IMG/VR virus record: IMGVR_UViG_3300014819_000089
Coordinates: 1 to 20,059 of that record
DNA: 20,059 bases
Strand: one strand, 5' to 3'
Source: a virus
The number at the start of each line of letters is the position of its first letter. Positions within the stretch are counted from its first letter, which is position 1. Below are positions 5,974 through 20,059 of this stretch, piece after piece. The notes below the pieces were generated by a model that saw nothing but the letters and a program-made list of their open reading frames with translations, was not told the origin of the DNA and ran no database searches. The translations under genes were made by a program, and so were the position numbers.

Positions 5974-6006
5974 AAACCCCTTTAGGTTGGTAGCCCAAAG
6001 GGGTTT
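5974..6006 (-). terminator. Hairpin terminator after the tRNA cluster
   Basis: A 10-bp perfect stem (AAACCCCTTT with AAAGGGGTTT) closes a 13-nt loop. On the minus strand it is followed by a T/A-rich run (TATTTATTTAAAATAAA). It sits 19 nt past the tRNA-Glu 3' end and before the lipoprotein gene, so it probably ends the promoter-ncRNA-tmRNA-tRNA transcript. The U-tract is imperfect, so read-through is likely. Confidence 0.7.
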
Positions 6007-6025: not shown

Positions 6026-6100
6026 TGGCATCTCTAAGGGGATTTGAACCCCTACTAATACCGTGAAAGGGTACTGTGCTAACCGTTACACTATAGAGAC
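6026..6100 (-). tRNA. tRNA-Glu (TTC)
   Basis: Full cloverleaf: acceptor GTCTCTA/TAGAGAT (7 bp, one G-U), anticodon stem GTACC/GGTAT around loop CTTTCAC giving anticodon TTC, T-arm GGGG-TTCAAAT-CCCC, discriminator G and an encoded CCA. Variable loop and D-arm are normal for tRNA-Glu. It reads GAA/GAG, and GAA is frequent in this AT-rich genome. Third tRNA of the locus, just before the terminator. Confidence 0.95.
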
Positions 6101-6109
6101 ATATGGAGA

Positions 6110-6182
6110 AGCCTCGTATCCGGATCGAACGGATGACATCGATATTACAAATATCGCGCTCTACCAACTGAGCTAACGAGGC
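6110..6182 (-). tRNA. tRNA-Thr (TGT)
   Basis: Full cloverleaf: acceptor GCCTCGT/ACGAGGC (7 bp), D-arm AGCTCAGTTGGTAGAGC, anticodon stem CGATA/TATCG around loop TTTGTAA giving anticodon TGT, T-loop TTCGATC and discriminator T. Unlike its neighbours, CCA is not encoded (TCT follows the discriminator), so a CCA-adding enzyme is needed. It lies 6 nt from tRNA-Tyr and 9 nt from tRNA-Glu, consistent with one precursor. Confidence 0.95.
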
Positions 6183-6188
6183 ATAAAA

Positions 6189-6273
6189 TGGTGGGCAGTG
6201 TTGGACTCGAACCAACGAACTCCGAAGAGGGAAAATTTACAGTCTTCTGCAATTGCCGCTATGCGAACTACCC
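6189..6273 (-). tRNA. tRNA-Tyr (GTA)
   Basis: A class II tRNA with a long variable arm. Acceptor GGGTAGT/ACTGCCC pairs over 7 bp with one T-G wobble. Anticodon stem GAAGA/TTTTC encloses loop CTGTAAA, giving anticodon GTA. T-arm TTGG-TTCGAGT-CCAA is followed by discriminator A and an encoded CCA. It is downstream of the tmRNA, separated by about 190 nt that may hold a small gene. Confidence 0.95.
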
Positions 6274-6466: not shown

Positions 6467-6882
6467 TGGTGGAGATGAGGGGAATCGAACCCCTGTCTTT
6501 ATAATATCCTCTAAAAGATACTACATGCTTTAATGTATTTGATTTATAAGGTATCTTGGCACATTAACCAACCTTTATGTTTTAAAGTTACATCAAACTC
6601 CGTAATATATTTTACATGATTTCTAACAGATCGTCAAAACCTCTGCAATTCAAAACGGATTTAGAGGATTACCGTTAGGCTTCAAGCGGCGAGTGCGTAA
6701 CACTCTTCTTCAACGCCACCGAGGAACTCGTCAGCATTGTTGAAGATGTATTCAGCTTCGGCTAAAAGATCAGACATATCATCGTCTGCATTTAGTTCTT
6801 TGATAGATTATTAAAGAGGCCAACTATCATCCTCTACATGCACTTTTAGGTTTCAACTATAAATCGAAACCAGTACACCCCC
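6467..6882 (-). ncRNA. ssrA: tmRNA (transfer-messenger RNA), complete
   Basis: 416 nt. The tRNA-like ends fit: 5' GGGGGTG pairs with 3' CATCTCC (7 bp, two G-U), followed by A and an encoded CCA. The T-arm is AGGGG-TTCGATT-CCCCT. The 5' region GTACTGGTTTCGATT and 3' region AAGCATGTAGTATC match tmRNA conserved blocks. Pseudoknot PK1 is clear: AGAGG/CCTCT with GATAG in its loop pairing with downstream CTATC. Twelve nt later, at RNA position 94, is resume codon GCA (E. coli: about 90). The tag frame is 35 codons, ends in CYALAA and stops at TGA 6684-6682. It would rescue stalled ribosomes and tag nascent peptides for proteolysis. Phage-borne tmRNAs are known but uncommon. Confidence 0.95.
6682..6789 (-). 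other. tmRNA proteolysis-tag reading frame (35 codons)
   Basis: From resume codon GCA (6789-6787) the frame reads ADDDMSDLLAEAEY at its start, has an NNADEFLGG middle, and ends EEECYALAA before TGA. The terminal ALAA is the classical ClpXP/ClpAP degron and matches the E. coli tag end (YALAA). The extension is strongly acidic and about three times longer than the common 10-residue tag. The frame is open upstream for only six more codons before a TAA, so the resume codon is well bounded. An internal ATG (codon 5) is in frame. Confidence 0.85.
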
Positions 6883-7584
6883 ATAAATTTCAAAGATCAT
6901 TACCAGAAAGTTCTTCATTGGCTACCGTGTTTTTCTCACGTTGGACGAAGATTACTTGTTACCCTCTGCCTAATCGAGTCTGGTGACAGTCTGCAACGGT
7001 GAGCTTTTTAAGAACAGCACAGCACACTATTCCCGTCCGACTTATCAAAATTAACTGGTGTGCCTTTTACAGCCAAAGGGGTTACGAATTTCTCCGTCCT
7101 GTGAAACGCAATTCACGGTCATCTCCGTACCTATAAATAGGATGTATGGCTTATTTGAATTGTGTCCATACGAATTACCAGTTCTCCACGTCCAATCTCC
7201 CACTCCTTAGATGATGGTTTTCTAAACCAACATTCCAGTTTTTAAAATCATTACCAAGACCTCTCATTCTAATCATTAGTCCTCCAAGTATCTTATGGAC
7301 GCATACATAATAATCGAAGAAGTTCCCTATGGGTTAAATGTTGTTTCCGGAAACATTGCATTGTCGCTCATCGCGGTAGAGCTTTCGAAGGCATCTGCGC
7401 TTGGTAAAAGAACACCCGCCAAAGTGTGCATCAACTTACTAGTTGCCGTGTACTTTAGAAACTACTCATGTCAAGTGAGAGGCATGGCGGGTCTACTAAA
7501 AATAAAATGTCAAATATCAATTTCCGATTTTGTATTCAACCGAGTATTCTCAGTCCCATTGGCTCATCGGGAACCAACTATCTA
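6883..7584 (-). ncRNA. Large structured non-coding RNA, GOLLD/ROOL-like candidate
   Basis: About 700 nt with no credible gene on the minus strand and visibly higher GC than the flanks. It lies between a strong promoter and the tmRNA. Complementary segments on the minus strand include ACCCGCCA with TGGCGGGT (7492-7485 with 7421-7414), TGGTTT/AAACCA (7229-7215), GTATGG/CCATAC (7171-7144), GCACAC/GTGTGC (7063-7022), CTCACCGTTG with CAACGTGAG (7003-6935), CTGAG/CTCGG near the 5' end, and GTTGGTT (7578-7572) with AGCCAAT (6923-6917), which would close the whole fold at about 660 nt. Size, structure and the setting beside phage tRNAs match the ornate GOLLD and ROOL classes. I cannot assign either from memory. 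The 3' end may be made by processing at the tmRNA 5' end. Confidence 0.65.
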
Positions 7585-7590
7585 ATAAAG

Positions 7591-7619
7591 ACTATATATC
7601 AATTTTCTAAAAATGTCAA
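7591..7619 (-). promoter_or_regulatory. Promoter of the ncRNA-tmRNA-tRNA locus
   Basis: TTGACA (7619-7614), a 17-bp spacer and TATAGT (7596-7591) form a near-consensus sigma70-type promoter, with a predicted start near 7584. It directly follows the stop of the 132-aa leader-bearing gene, and nothing coding lies between it and the RNA. This is one of the best promoter matches in the window. Confidence 0.75.
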
Positions 7620-7622
7620 CAA

Positions 7623-8021
7623 TTATATATCTTCATGATCGGGTTCATCCGAACTAAAATCATATCTACCATTATCTATATCTGATTCAATATCTGCATA
7701 AATAGCTGATTGAATTTGACTCAATATGTCTTTATCTAGTTCTTGTAATGGTACTTGAACATTATCATCTATTGTTGGATCATATTTCCATACTCCAACA
7801 ATATCTATTTTTGGATCATCGTAAAATGTTCCATGTTGCTCTACGCTTCTTGTTAAGTCAACATCATAAGATACGGAATAAACGTCTTCTCCGATATTAA
7901 TTTCATCAATAGTTCTAACGCTATTAGATGATCCTTTTTGAATTTCATATCCAGTTCCTAAATTTTCTTTTAAGATTTTTGAATATGCTTGTTCCAGTAA
8001 AATTTGATCTTTGCTTTTCAT
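7623..8021 (-). CDS. Leader-bearing hypothetical protein, 132 aa (candidate packaged protein)
   Basis: Starts MKSKDQILLEQAYSKILKEN, almost identical to the starts of two other genes at 19321 and 20001. The leader holds LLE and LKE, both matching the (L/I)xE consensus that T4 prohead protease gp21 cuts to remove capsid-targeting sequences. The rest is acidic and beta-rich (INIGEDVYSVSYDVDLTRSV, then KIDIVGVWKYDPTID), with no known domain. A role as an internal virion protein injected with DNA is inferred from the leader only. Its stop abuts the promoter of the RNA locus. Confidence 0.75.
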   Translation of the reverse strand: MKSKDQILLEQAYSKILKENLGTGYEIQKGSSNSVRTIDEINIGEDVYSVSYDVDLTRSVEQHGTFYDDPKIDIVGVWKYDPTIDDNVQVPLQELDKDILSQIQSAIYADIESDIDNGRYDFSSDEPDHEDI

Positions 8022-9924: not shown

Positions 9925-10440
9925 TTATTTATTTAATTTTACTGCACCCTTACTTCCAGAACGAACCAATCCTGTTCCTGCTGCTTGAATTGTACCAGAT
10001 TTTTGTAAATGCTTTTTAAAAGTATTGAACAAATCTTGTTTTAATGCATCGGTGTCCTGTATACCTAATCCTAAATTTTTAACGTCTCTTACGACACCAG
10101 TTAACATACTATTTAAATATTGTGTCAATCTTTGTCCGGTATATTGACTATCCACTTCATTTCTTTTTTTTGAAAGTTCTGATTGTTTTATTTGTTGATC
10201 TTTATATGATTGTAATGAACGAGGATCTTGTCCCTTTGCTCCTGCGACAGCACCAATTCCCATTTGTTTGGCTTTAGAAAATCCTTTTTGTGCGCCAATT
10301 ACAGCTTTTTTAGCAGCACCACCCAATCCTCTAACCACATCACCACCTACGGTTTTAAAAAAAGAACCTAAATCTTCATCTAATTGTTGTTCAATTACTT
10401 TGTTATAGGCTTCGTTCAATAAAATATCATCTTTTTTCAT
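9925..10440 (-). CDS. Leader-bearing Gly/Ala/Lys-rich protein, 171 aa (candidate internal virion protein)
   Basis: Starts MKKDDILLNEAYNKVIEQQ, a variant of the shared leader with LNE and LDE (L/I)xE sites. Next comes a Gly/Ala-rich amphipathic stretch (FFKTVGGDVVRGLGGAAKKA, then GAVAGAKGQDPRSLQSYKDQ), a helical middle and a basic end (SGSKGAVKLNK). The mature part is basic and low in complexity, like packaged DNA-associated or membrane-active phage proteins. No enzymatic motif is visible. A TATAAATA box (10454-10447), the T4 late-promoter core, lies 6 nt before the ATG. Confidence 0.7.
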   Translation of the reverse strand: MKKDDILLNEAYNKVIEQQLDEDLGSFFKTVGGDVVRGLGGAAKKAVIGAQKGFSKAKQMGIGAVAGAKGQDPRSLQSYKDQQIKQSELSKKRNEVDSQYTGQRLTQYLNSMLTGVVRDVKNLGLGIQDTDALKQDLFNTFKKHLQKSGTIQAAGTGLVRSGSKGAVKLNK

Positions 10441-15744: not shown

Positions 15745-16401
15745 TTAATTAACCTTATAAAAGTCTTCCCAAACTGACTCACTAAGACCAAAATCAACTA
15801 ATACTACGATTGGGACACCATCTCTAAGAACTTCACCATAGGAATTTACCCTCCCGAAGTCACCAGGATACTTCATTCCAAAATTCATAATCATATCCGT
15901 GAGTGATGTTAAAAATTGATTGTCATTTACTTTCTGACTAAATTCGTCGTGTAATTGCTTTAATTGTTCTGGTTTTAAATATTTTCTTCTGGAACTATTA
16001 TTCAGTGTTTCCATTACACGAAGCATATCTTGAACTTCATTTAAACTTATTCCGGTTAATTGTTTAAATCTATTTGGTGTTAATTTTTTAGCCAATTCCA
16101 TTTCAACCCAAAAGTGATCTTCGTTTGTATTAAATATTTTAGCAACTATATCAGACATTCTTTGCAATCCCCAATCCGATTCTATTGAATTTTGACCTAT
16201 TCCTTTTTTATTCTTGGCTATTTTTAAAACCTTTTCATCATCAACCTTATATACAACTCTGGCACTACCGGAAGATATTTTCTGCAATCTTTCATTTGCA
16301 TATTTCAATTTACCATTATATGATTTAATGTTATTAAATTCATCAAAAGAAAAACTTACAGGATAAGCCATTTCCTTTATATATTGTTTAAAAGATTTCA
16401 T
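15745..16401 (-). CDS. Protein-kinase-like enzyme with capsid-targeting-type leader
   Basis: 218 aa. Leader MKSFKQYIKE ends in IKE, an (L/I)xE site, and resembles T4 internal-protein leaders (MKTYQEFIAE). Kinase features follow in order: nucleotide loop SSGSARVVYKV (43-53), VLKIAK with K60 as the VAIK-type lysine, a hinge EMEL (100-103), catalytic-loop DFGRVN (D181, N186; DxxxxN) and metal-binding DFG (203-205). All key residues are present although the HRD His is absent. Target unknown. A packaged kinase could act on host proteins on entry. ATGA-coupled to the upstream gene. Confidence 0.72.
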   Translation of the reverse strand: MKSFKQYIKEMAYPVSFSFDEFNNIKSYNGKLKYANERLQKISSGSARVVYKVDDEKVLKIAKNKKGIGQNSIESDWGLQRMSDIVAKIFNTNEDHFWVEMELAKKLTPNRFKQLTGISLNEVQDMLRVMETLNNSSRRKYLKPEQLKQLHDEFSQKVNDNQFLTSLTDMIMNFGMKYPGDFGRVNSYGEVLRDGVPIVVLVDFGLSESVWEDFYKVN

Positions 16402-18925: not shown

Positions 18926-19321
18926 TTATTGAGAACTCCAAATACTATGATAATCTTCGCTGTACTCATCATCAAAATATATATCACTCATTTTGTTTTC
19001 TATAGCCAAATTTTTTAATTCTCTTAATTGTTTTTGATTTGGTTTCATTTTATTATTATGACAATATAATTCGCTTCCTATATATGTCAACCTCATCCAA
19101 CCTTTTATAAAAAGCAAATCATATACCTGATTTGCAAACATCATATCTTTTGTAGATATATTGTATCTATCCTGTAGAATTTTTTTACCAGATGAAAAAT
19201 GACCCTCTCCTTTATTTGAAATTATTTCCCCTGATGGATTCATCCATGCATACAAAGAACCCGATTCATTTAGAATATCTAAATAAAGATTTTCCAGTAA
19301 TATTTGATCTTTGTTTTTCAT
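18926..19321 (-). CDS. Leader-bearing protein, 131 aa
   Basis: Start ATG 19321 overlaps the upstream stop as ATGA and has AAAGGA 5 nt upstream, the clearest Shine-Dalgarno here; a start at 19339 is less likely. Leader MKNKDQILLENLYLDILNES has LLE and LNE sites. The body (LYAWMNPSGEIISNKGEGHF, then FIKGWMRLTYIGSELYCHNN and KQLRELKNLAIE) resembles an uncharacterised phage domain with an AWxNPxG start, a GWxRxxYxG core and a KQLxxLKxLAIE helix. Function unknown. Confidence 0.75.
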   Translation of the reverse strand: MKNKDQILLENLYLDILNESGSLYAWMNPSGEIISNKGEGHFSSGKKILQDRYNISTKDMMFANQVYDLLFIKGWMRLTYIGSELYCHNNKMKPNQKQLRELKNLAIENKMSDIYFDDEYSEDYHSIWSSQ

Positions 19322-20001
19322 TTTAATCCTTTTATCCACATGTAATCTTCTCCACGTTTCAAATATTGTTTTAATAGTATTTGATCACATTCAAATCTTG
19401 ATAAATCTGGAGAAATTCTTTTGCTGACCTCATTATACTCAAAACCTTCTTTTCTTCTTTCTTCCGATGCTTTTAATCTATCAGAAACTAAATTGGGAAT
19501 TTTTGGATTGTCGTGTGGAAATCTTTCATCTGTATTCCACCATTCGGGTAATTTGTCTTTATAAACATATTCTGGATGTTTGTGGGGATTTAATGTGATA
19601 GATTTCCAATCACCACTTGATAATATACTAGGAATTTTGCTCATGTCAAACTCAACATCTTCAACAATTCCTTCCACAAGTAAGTTTGGCTTCTTTTTAC
19701 CATATGCTGGATTTAATTGAACTTTTGAAAGATCACTGTGTTTTACTTCTGCACTACAATTTTTTAATAATAATGTTCTTGCATTATGAACAACTTTCCA
19801 TTTTAACTTTCCGTTTTCTGGAACTAATTCCTTTATAGACCATGCCATATAATGATCAGGATCACTTTCTGGTGTACCTTGAATTGCAGGATGTACTTGA
19901 ACTTTCTTTCCAATCAATTCTTGTGGATTCTCCTTTACAACCTTTTCTTCATAAATTAATTCATACAAATTCTCTAGTAATATTTGGTCTTTTGTTTTCA
20001 T
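19318..20001 (-). CDS. Leader-bearing hypothetical protein, 227 aa
   Basis: Leader MKTKDQILLENLYELIYEEK is nearly identical to that of the next gene. The body begins with a beta-rich part (LIGKKVQVHPAIQGTPESDP, then KLKWKVVHNARTLLLKNCSA) and ends in a Trp/Pro-rich and charged segment (LPEWWNTDERFPHDNPKIPN). No catalytic motif is evident. ATG 20001 lies one base after the upstream gene stop and is preferred over an ATG six codons upstream that would overlap that gene. Confidence 0.72.
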   Translation of the reverse strand: MKTKDQILLENLYELIYEEKVVKENPQELIGKKVQVHPAIQGTPESDPDHYMAWSIKELVPENGKLKWKVVHNARTLLLKNCSAEVKHSDLSKVQLNPAYGKKKPNLLVEGIVEDVEFDMSKIPSILSSGDWKSITLNPHKHPEYVYKDKLPEWWNTDERFPHDNPKIPNLVSDRLKASEERRKEGFEYNEVSKRISPDLSRFECDQILLKQYLKRGEDYMWIKGLK

Positions 20002-20002
20002 A

Positions 20003-20059
20003 TTAATAAGCAAATGCACCCAAAGTTAATAGTGAACTATAATCCATCTGTCCGTTTTC
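20003..20059 (-). CDS. C-terminal end of an upstream gene (partial)
   Basis: The last 18 codons and stop of a frame running off the window: ENGQMDYSSLLTLGAFAY. The frame ends one base before the next start, consistent with the gene train. Too short to identify. Confidence 0.5.
   Translation of the reverse strand, partial: ENGQMDYSSLLTLGAFAY

Follow-up and report, generated by a model that had tools for sequence, protein, structure and literature searches.

A phage tmRNA with a 35-residue tag that holds a conserved amphipathic segment, found in a family of uncultured viral contigs

The bacterial one-piece tmRNA (ssrA, RF00023) is the best-described relative of the viral RNA considered here, and the two share a tRNA-like domain (TLD) with G3-U70 and CCA, PK1, a sequence context of the A86 type, an alanine resume codon and an LAA-type end of the tag. 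They differ in that the viral tag has 35 codons (32–45 in its relatives), most of which encode a conserved helix placed between the usual start and the usual end. Published tags are 8–35 residues long (PMC3968760, PMC8012679); LAA is recognised by ClpX (PMC3968760), and mutation of A86 in Escherichia coli abolishes activity or shifts the frame (PMC2481249). Phage tmRNAs have been reported for Bacillus phage G and for mycobacteriophages such as Wildcat (PMC4131195), Melnitz (PMC9004378) and Marzo (PMC8928761). They resemble the present case in being complete ssrA genes in a virus, accompanied in Marzo by tRNA genes (PMC8928761), but a long conserved tag is not described for them in the portions of those reports drawn on here, and the Melnitz tmRNA is two-piece (PMC9004378), whereas the present one is one-piece. 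The roles proposed for phage tmRNA in the portion of the Melnitz report drawn on here are the upkeep of hijacked ribosomes or the recycling of host proteins (PMC9004378). In Wildcat, the tmRNA is the most highly expressed lytic gene (PMC7474061). This expression suggests that phages profit from a tmRNA.

The tag of Mesoplasma florum is about 27 residues long. Like the viral tag, it is long and contains a distinct segment for recognition, but it is read by Mf-Lon (PMC9097571), whereas here the LAA-type end is kept and Lon was found in 0 of 17 related viral records.

The window, i.e. the whole stretch of DNA analysed, is a 20-kb fragment from IMG/VR (20,059 nt), from a virus of aquatic bacteria. 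Its features in the region of interest are collected in Table 1.

Table 1. Features of the RNA region, with positions in the window and the basis on which each was assigned
Feature	Position	Strand	Basis
Sigma-70-like promoter TTGACA-17-TATAGT, start of RNA region	7591..7619	(-)	Consensus scan, 11/12 matches; number of sites no higher than in shuffles
R1 RNA, candidate new structured family	6902..7046, core 6902-6984	(-)	Covariance model, 20 loci
One-piece tmRNA gene	6467..6882	(-)	RF00023 126.3 bits, E 1.8e-49; ARAGORN
Acceptor stem, 5' strand GGGGGTG, with G3-U70	6876..6882	(-)	G3-U70 in 60/60 complete family members
PK1, S1 AGAGG/CCTCT and S2 TGATAG/CTATCA	6801..6835	(-)	Covariation, 29 distinct sequences
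CTAAAT preceding the resume codon, with U at -5 and, as counterpart of E. coli A86, A at -4	6790..6795	(-)	71 family members
Tag reading frame, 35 codons and TGA: ADDDMSDLLAEAEYIFNNADEFLGGVEEECYALAA	6682..6789	(-)	Translation; frame-specific purifying selection
Conserved tag core EAEYIFNNA, codons 11-19	6733..6759	(-)	pN/pS; AlphaFold helix; coincides with the start of ARAGORN's 25-aa tag
C-terminal YALAA, ClpX-type degron end	6685..6699	(-)	Sequence; PMC3968760
T-arm, 3' acceptor strand, discriminator A, encoded CCA	6467..6494	(-)	Read from sequence
tRNA-Tyr (GTA)	6189..6273	(-)	ARAGORN, Rfam
tRNA-Thr (TGT)	6110..6182	(-)	ARAGORN, Rfam
tRNA-Glu (TTC)	6026..6100	(-)	ARAGORN, Rfam
Intrinsic terminator-like hairpin, 13 bp, past the tRNAs	5974..6006	(-)	Sequence scan

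The tmRNA model search that the preliminary description of this locus had proposed returned a match over the full length of RF00023 (model positions 1–374), far above the cut-off of 47 bits (E 4e-53 for one genome), and the bounds given by ARAGORN and Infernal were identical. The parts follow the order 5′ TLD, PK1, tag and 3′ TLD. A permuted (two-piece) tmRNA is ruled out, because the 3′ TLD part does not precede the 5′ part in the gene. The intact tRNA-like domain with CCA that had been read from the sequence was borne out: all seven acceptor pairs and all five T-stem pairs form, G3-U70, which is the alanine identity pair, is present, and CCA is encoded. Both stems of PK1 were likewise recovered. 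Across 29 distinct sequences, 97.9% of the PK1 cells were paired, nine of the ten pairs had changed on both sides, and the covariation score was reached by none of 500 shuffles; such strong covariation indicates that the tmRNAs of this family are maintained RNAs. PK2–PK4 were placed by the Rfam alignment at low posterior.

The resume codon is the GCA at 6789–6787(−), nucleotide 94 of the RNA as originally proposed. It lies 11 nt past PK1 (9–14 nt among family members) and sits under the consensus resume codon in the Rfam alignment. From there, translation of the frame gave the claimed 35 codons, with a coding part at 6685–6789(−), the YALAA end and a stop TGA at 6684–6682(−). The same tag was found in an independent contig (L005) and nearly the same tag in two more (L013 and L056), so a sequencing error or a hidden stop is unlikely. 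At the upstream GCA, A was found at −4 in 71 of 71 family members and U at −5 in 69 of 71. Purifying selection was also evident in the first part of the frame: pN/pS for codons 2–10 was 0.30 in frame versus about 1.25 in shifted frames, and for codons 5–10 it was 0.34 versus 1.7–2.7 in the start-selected set, or 0.40 (0.32–0.57) when that set was thinned to 18. It is apparent from the low in-frame and high shifted-frame values that codons 2–10 are translated, and the preliminary description's concern that the resume codon might lie much further downstream was not substantiated.

A different start was called by ARAGORN, at nucleotide 124 (codon 11), which would give a tag of 25 residues. In the window, −5 is U and −4 is A at this codon too, but among the members A occupies −4 in only 55 of 76, as against 71 of 71 at the upstream GCA. 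Moreover, the codon is GAA, an unusual resume codon, it would stand about 41 nt from PK1, and a start there would skip codons 2–10, on which selection acts at the protein level. Codon selection and the A86 context rule out the 25-residue tag, and it is therefore highly improbable that the ARAGORN call is correct. The program recovered just 23 of 75 family loci and lost the tag start in 22 of those 23. Since the standard annotation tool shortens or misses these tags, long phage tags have probably been under-reported.

More than 80 uncultured viral contigs have the same kind of tmRNA. The family was built from sequence patterns (tag core, PK1 and start context), its records are fragments, and all of the evidence is comparative. 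A degenerate EAEYIFNNA pattern retrieved 75 IMG/VR stretches, in which the in-frame reading resembles tmRNA tags; 69 of the 71 readable tags in this core-selected set were 32–35 residues long and the other two were 45 (L003 and L004, AENYISDLLAEAEYIFNNASEFLGDVVDSVVDFFNGADEEYALAA and a near-identical one). PK1 alone, used as an independent pattern, retrieved 13 stretches, all 13 with a long tag. The start context alone retrieved 56 stretches; tmRNA tags could be read in 51 of them and were 32–35 residues long, and the core variants among them included EAEYCFNNA, EALYCLENA, EAEYCINHA, EAEYIINNA and others. The LAA-like end was kept in 54–56 of 57 unique tags, depending on the position, and LLAV, SLEA and YALVA were found as C-terminal variants in some members. 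The unusual length attributed to the window tag must be qualified: the 35 codons stand, but 35 residues lie at the top of the published range of 8–35 (PMC3968760, PMC8012679), and only the 45-residue tags fall outside it. Known tag length is thus extended to 45.

Viral contigs were also surveyed by other means. Sampling based on Gp23 found a tmRNA in only 1 of 20 records, mostly short ones. When the tRNA-like domain alone was used, ARAGORN reported 82 tags, 67 of 8–16 residues and 15 of 21–31 residues, some of the latter being doubtful permuted calls. By eye, several of the long tags are sound (e.g. L119, ADEEYRDLLAEAEQIFNNADAYVPEEALLAA; L206, AESNFDFAPSVAEADAFLKASGFVDAELLAA; and L128), and by manual reading the tag frame of L163 reaches 34 residues; it follows that long tags recur in viral tmRNAs outside the family. 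As judged from sequence, this suggests that extension of the tag has been repeated in phages. Unrelated long tags of 24–34 residues were noted in the viral tmRNAs L163, L206, L128, L177, L226 and L197.

The strength of selection on the tag was estimated as pN/pS, a pooled pairwise measure calculated with no tree. For the core, the value was 0.07 in 37 unique tags chosen solely by their start and 0.11 (bootstrap 95% 0.04–0.19) when the start-selected set was thinned to 18, with 1.10 in a shifted frame over the core. The last three codons gave 0.15 (0.00–0.35) in the same thinned set. As both values are low, the inserted middle is about as constrained as the classical LAA degron. Synonymous sites in the core are close to saturation (pS 0.65–0.78), which indicates that the constraint is on the protein and not on the RNA. 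RNA structure was considered as the cause of the constraint and ruled out on the basis of that pS and of shifted-frame values above 1.

The conserved feature of the tag is an amphipathic helical segment. Many peptides are given a short predicted helix. AlphaFold modelled the tag with only moderate confidence (mean pLDDT 75, rising to about 89 at residues 11–20) and predicted a helix at residues 5–17, followed by two more helical stretches. The hydrophobic moment exceeded that of most shuffles in three of the four tag variants tested, consistent with an amphipathic character. Searches with the tag gave no match in Pfam, no fold match of note with Foldseek and no convincing match to PDB sequences. 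The most divergent tag, that of L308 (AKTNVKAILAKVKKAVNTITEFCLCDEMAPLAIAA; 29% identity), has 35 residues, a lysine-rich middle and an AIAA end, and resembles the other tags in length, hydrophobic spacing and layout. Acidity therefore does not appear to be essential, and its candidacy as an essential feature of the tag is weakened; of the earlier proposal of an acidic extension with a function, the function remains likely, because the extension is under strong purifying selection at the protein level, but the acidity is not conserved. At 29% identity, L308 also implies that strict recognition of the sequence may be confined to the main clade.

The preliminary description had called for tag frames to be compared in phage and host tmRNAs. 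Tags are 32–35 or 45 residues long in the viral relatives versus 9–17 in 64 bacterial tmRNAs, these being samples of the phylum of a Bacteroidetes genome, the class of a Keguizhuia genome and a few others. When 84,980 prokaryote species genomes were scanned, the tag core gave 24 hits, none in a tmRNA and all inside unrelated reading frames; the pattern is so strict that a divergent host tag would escape it. No match to a 33-residue family tag was found by tblastn in 50,697 phage records. Origin of the tag from the sampled bacteria was accordingly rejected. The related records that bear Gp23 are T4-like, with about 34% identity to the nearest cyanophage Gp23. No smpB was found in 28 related viral records, so host SmpB must serve; a phage-encoded SmpB or Lon was thus rejected for the related records examined (0 of 28 and 0 of 17, respectively). 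ClpP is encoded in only 2 of 18. A ClpP-like protease lies about 5.5 kb from a long-tag tmRNA in G004 (83236–83730) and G015 (33303–33797).

Taken together, these data make it probable that the window encodes a functional phage tmRNA of a virus-specific family that uses the host's AlaRS, SmpB and EF-Tu, and that its 35-residue tag is a degron with an inserted, sequence-specific amphipathic helix that recognises a partner. Support is good for the tagging machinery, and the data show the anatomy of the RNA, its reading frame and selection on its peptide; that the RNA is charged and tags proteins in the cell, that it relies on the host's SmpB, and what the helix binds are inferred. The process is most likely ordinary trans-translation in which only the tag is changed. 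Host AlaRS would charge the phage tmRNA, and host SmpB and EF-Tu would bring it to ribosomes that stall on broken or cleaved mRNA in the infected cell. Translation would resume there at GCA (nucleotide 94), append 35 residues and stop at TGA. The tag so added would open with an acidic stretch like that of host tags (ADDDM or AEDNT), continue with the amphipathic helix SDLLAEAEYIFNNADEFL and close with a host-like ClpX-type end (YALAA, LLAA), and might act as a bipartite degron in which LAA is meant for ClpX and the helix makes a second contact, most likely with a protease or adaptor. Compared with the host's tag of about 10 residues, this would alter or speed up the handling of tagged chains. 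That the helix has been kept across dozens of uncultured phages implies that something specific is probably done to the rescued proteins.

Other explanations of the extension must be weighed against this bipartite degron. It might be a spacer only, i.e. a tail whose extra length and accessibility let an unfoldase grip it better and which has no specific partner. A length of 32–35 residues in nearly all members, kept in L308 despite a very different sequence, is what such a spacer would lead one to expect, but EAEYIFNNA is not needed for spacing, and yet its nine residues have a pN/pS of 0.07–0.11, as low as that of LAA; in addition, 10 extra residues are tolerated in L003 and L004. The constraint on the core sequence thus disfavours a pure spacer, which is considered unlikely. 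A similarly low probability is given to a role of the helix outside degradation, in which the tag would mark nascent chains for a host or phage factor, or block one, e.g. by adaptor titration or in the exit tunnel. Consistent with this, a chain of 35–45 residues would about span the tunnel, the helix is constrained at least as much as the degron end, that end varies in some members, and no partner protease was found (among the related viral records, ClpP in 2 of 18 and Lon in 0 of 17); the LAA-like end of almost all members nevertheless favours proteolysis. Finally, the long tag may have been inherited from an unsampled host lineage with a long-tag tmRNA of its own. Published tags do reach 35 residues (PMC3968760), but the core is in no tmRNA of the 84,980 species genomes, although the strict pattern misses divergent tags, and the samples from two bacterial groups gave only 9–17 residues; inheritance of this kind is very unlikely.

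The degron reading leads to a broader and more tentative hypothesis. Aquatic uncultured phages, as a widespread group, may have rewritten the ssrA degron, such that a conserved helical domain redirects rescued proteins to a fate of the phage's choosing (a specific protease, an adaptor or a regulator), and tags of this long helical kind may have arisen repeatedly in other phage tmRNAs; such reprogramming of host machinery by way of the tmRNA tag would not have been described previously. The constraint on the helix, which matches that on LAA, and its absence from the searched bacterial tmRNAs make two questions testable: what binds the helix, and what becomes of tagged proteins during infection?

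The region upstream of the tmRNA was also analysed. No convincing ORF was found in these 740 nt, which are as conserved as the tmRNA itself (92–97% in most close relatives versus 78–88% for the RNA ligase gene). The global fold of the whole 740 nt was no better than that of shuffles, but the R1 block within it is clearly structured. This candidate RNA lies 19 nt upstream of the tmRNA and has no match in Rfam. Its covariance model found it in 20 loci and in 10 of 29 virus records; the core of about 83 nt has 19 consensus pairs, with compensatory changes in seven of them, and its near-invariant segments are GATTAGGCAG and TTCGTCCA/GTAGCCAA. R1 is also present in L004, L016, L018, L043, L046, L057, L317 and others. 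In 36 of 52 occurrences, a count that partly includes duplicate loci, the R1 core is followed by a long-tag tmRNA no more than 700 nt away, and some other R1 cores adjoin tRNA genes (tRNA-Cys or tRNA-Ser). Inside the conserved region that is free of ORFs, a hairpin at 7414–7491(−) resembles abiF RNA (RF03085, 29.9 bits, under the cut-off of 37).

Some variation was observed in the tRNA-like domain of the family. CCA is absent from the gene in 21 of 60 complete tmRNAs, and these would need a CCA-adding enzyme. Non-canonical T-loops (8-nt TATCGTAT, or GGCAGNN, versus TTCRANN) occur in some members (L004, L007, L008, L010, L014, L019, L024, L055, L063 and others). They are largely paired with distinct D-loop sequences, while the rest of those RNAs is very similar, a pattern in the sequences that suggests either an exchange of halves of the tRNA-like domain or the coevolution of D- and T-loop modules.

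Lastly, several unrelated ORFs of the window share a leader, e.g. MKSKDQILLEQAYSKI or MKSFKQYIKEMA. It was found on the ORFs at 7623–8021, 9925–10440, 15745–16401, 18926–19339 and 19318–20019 (−), and is reminiscent of the capsid-targeting leaders of T4-like phages.
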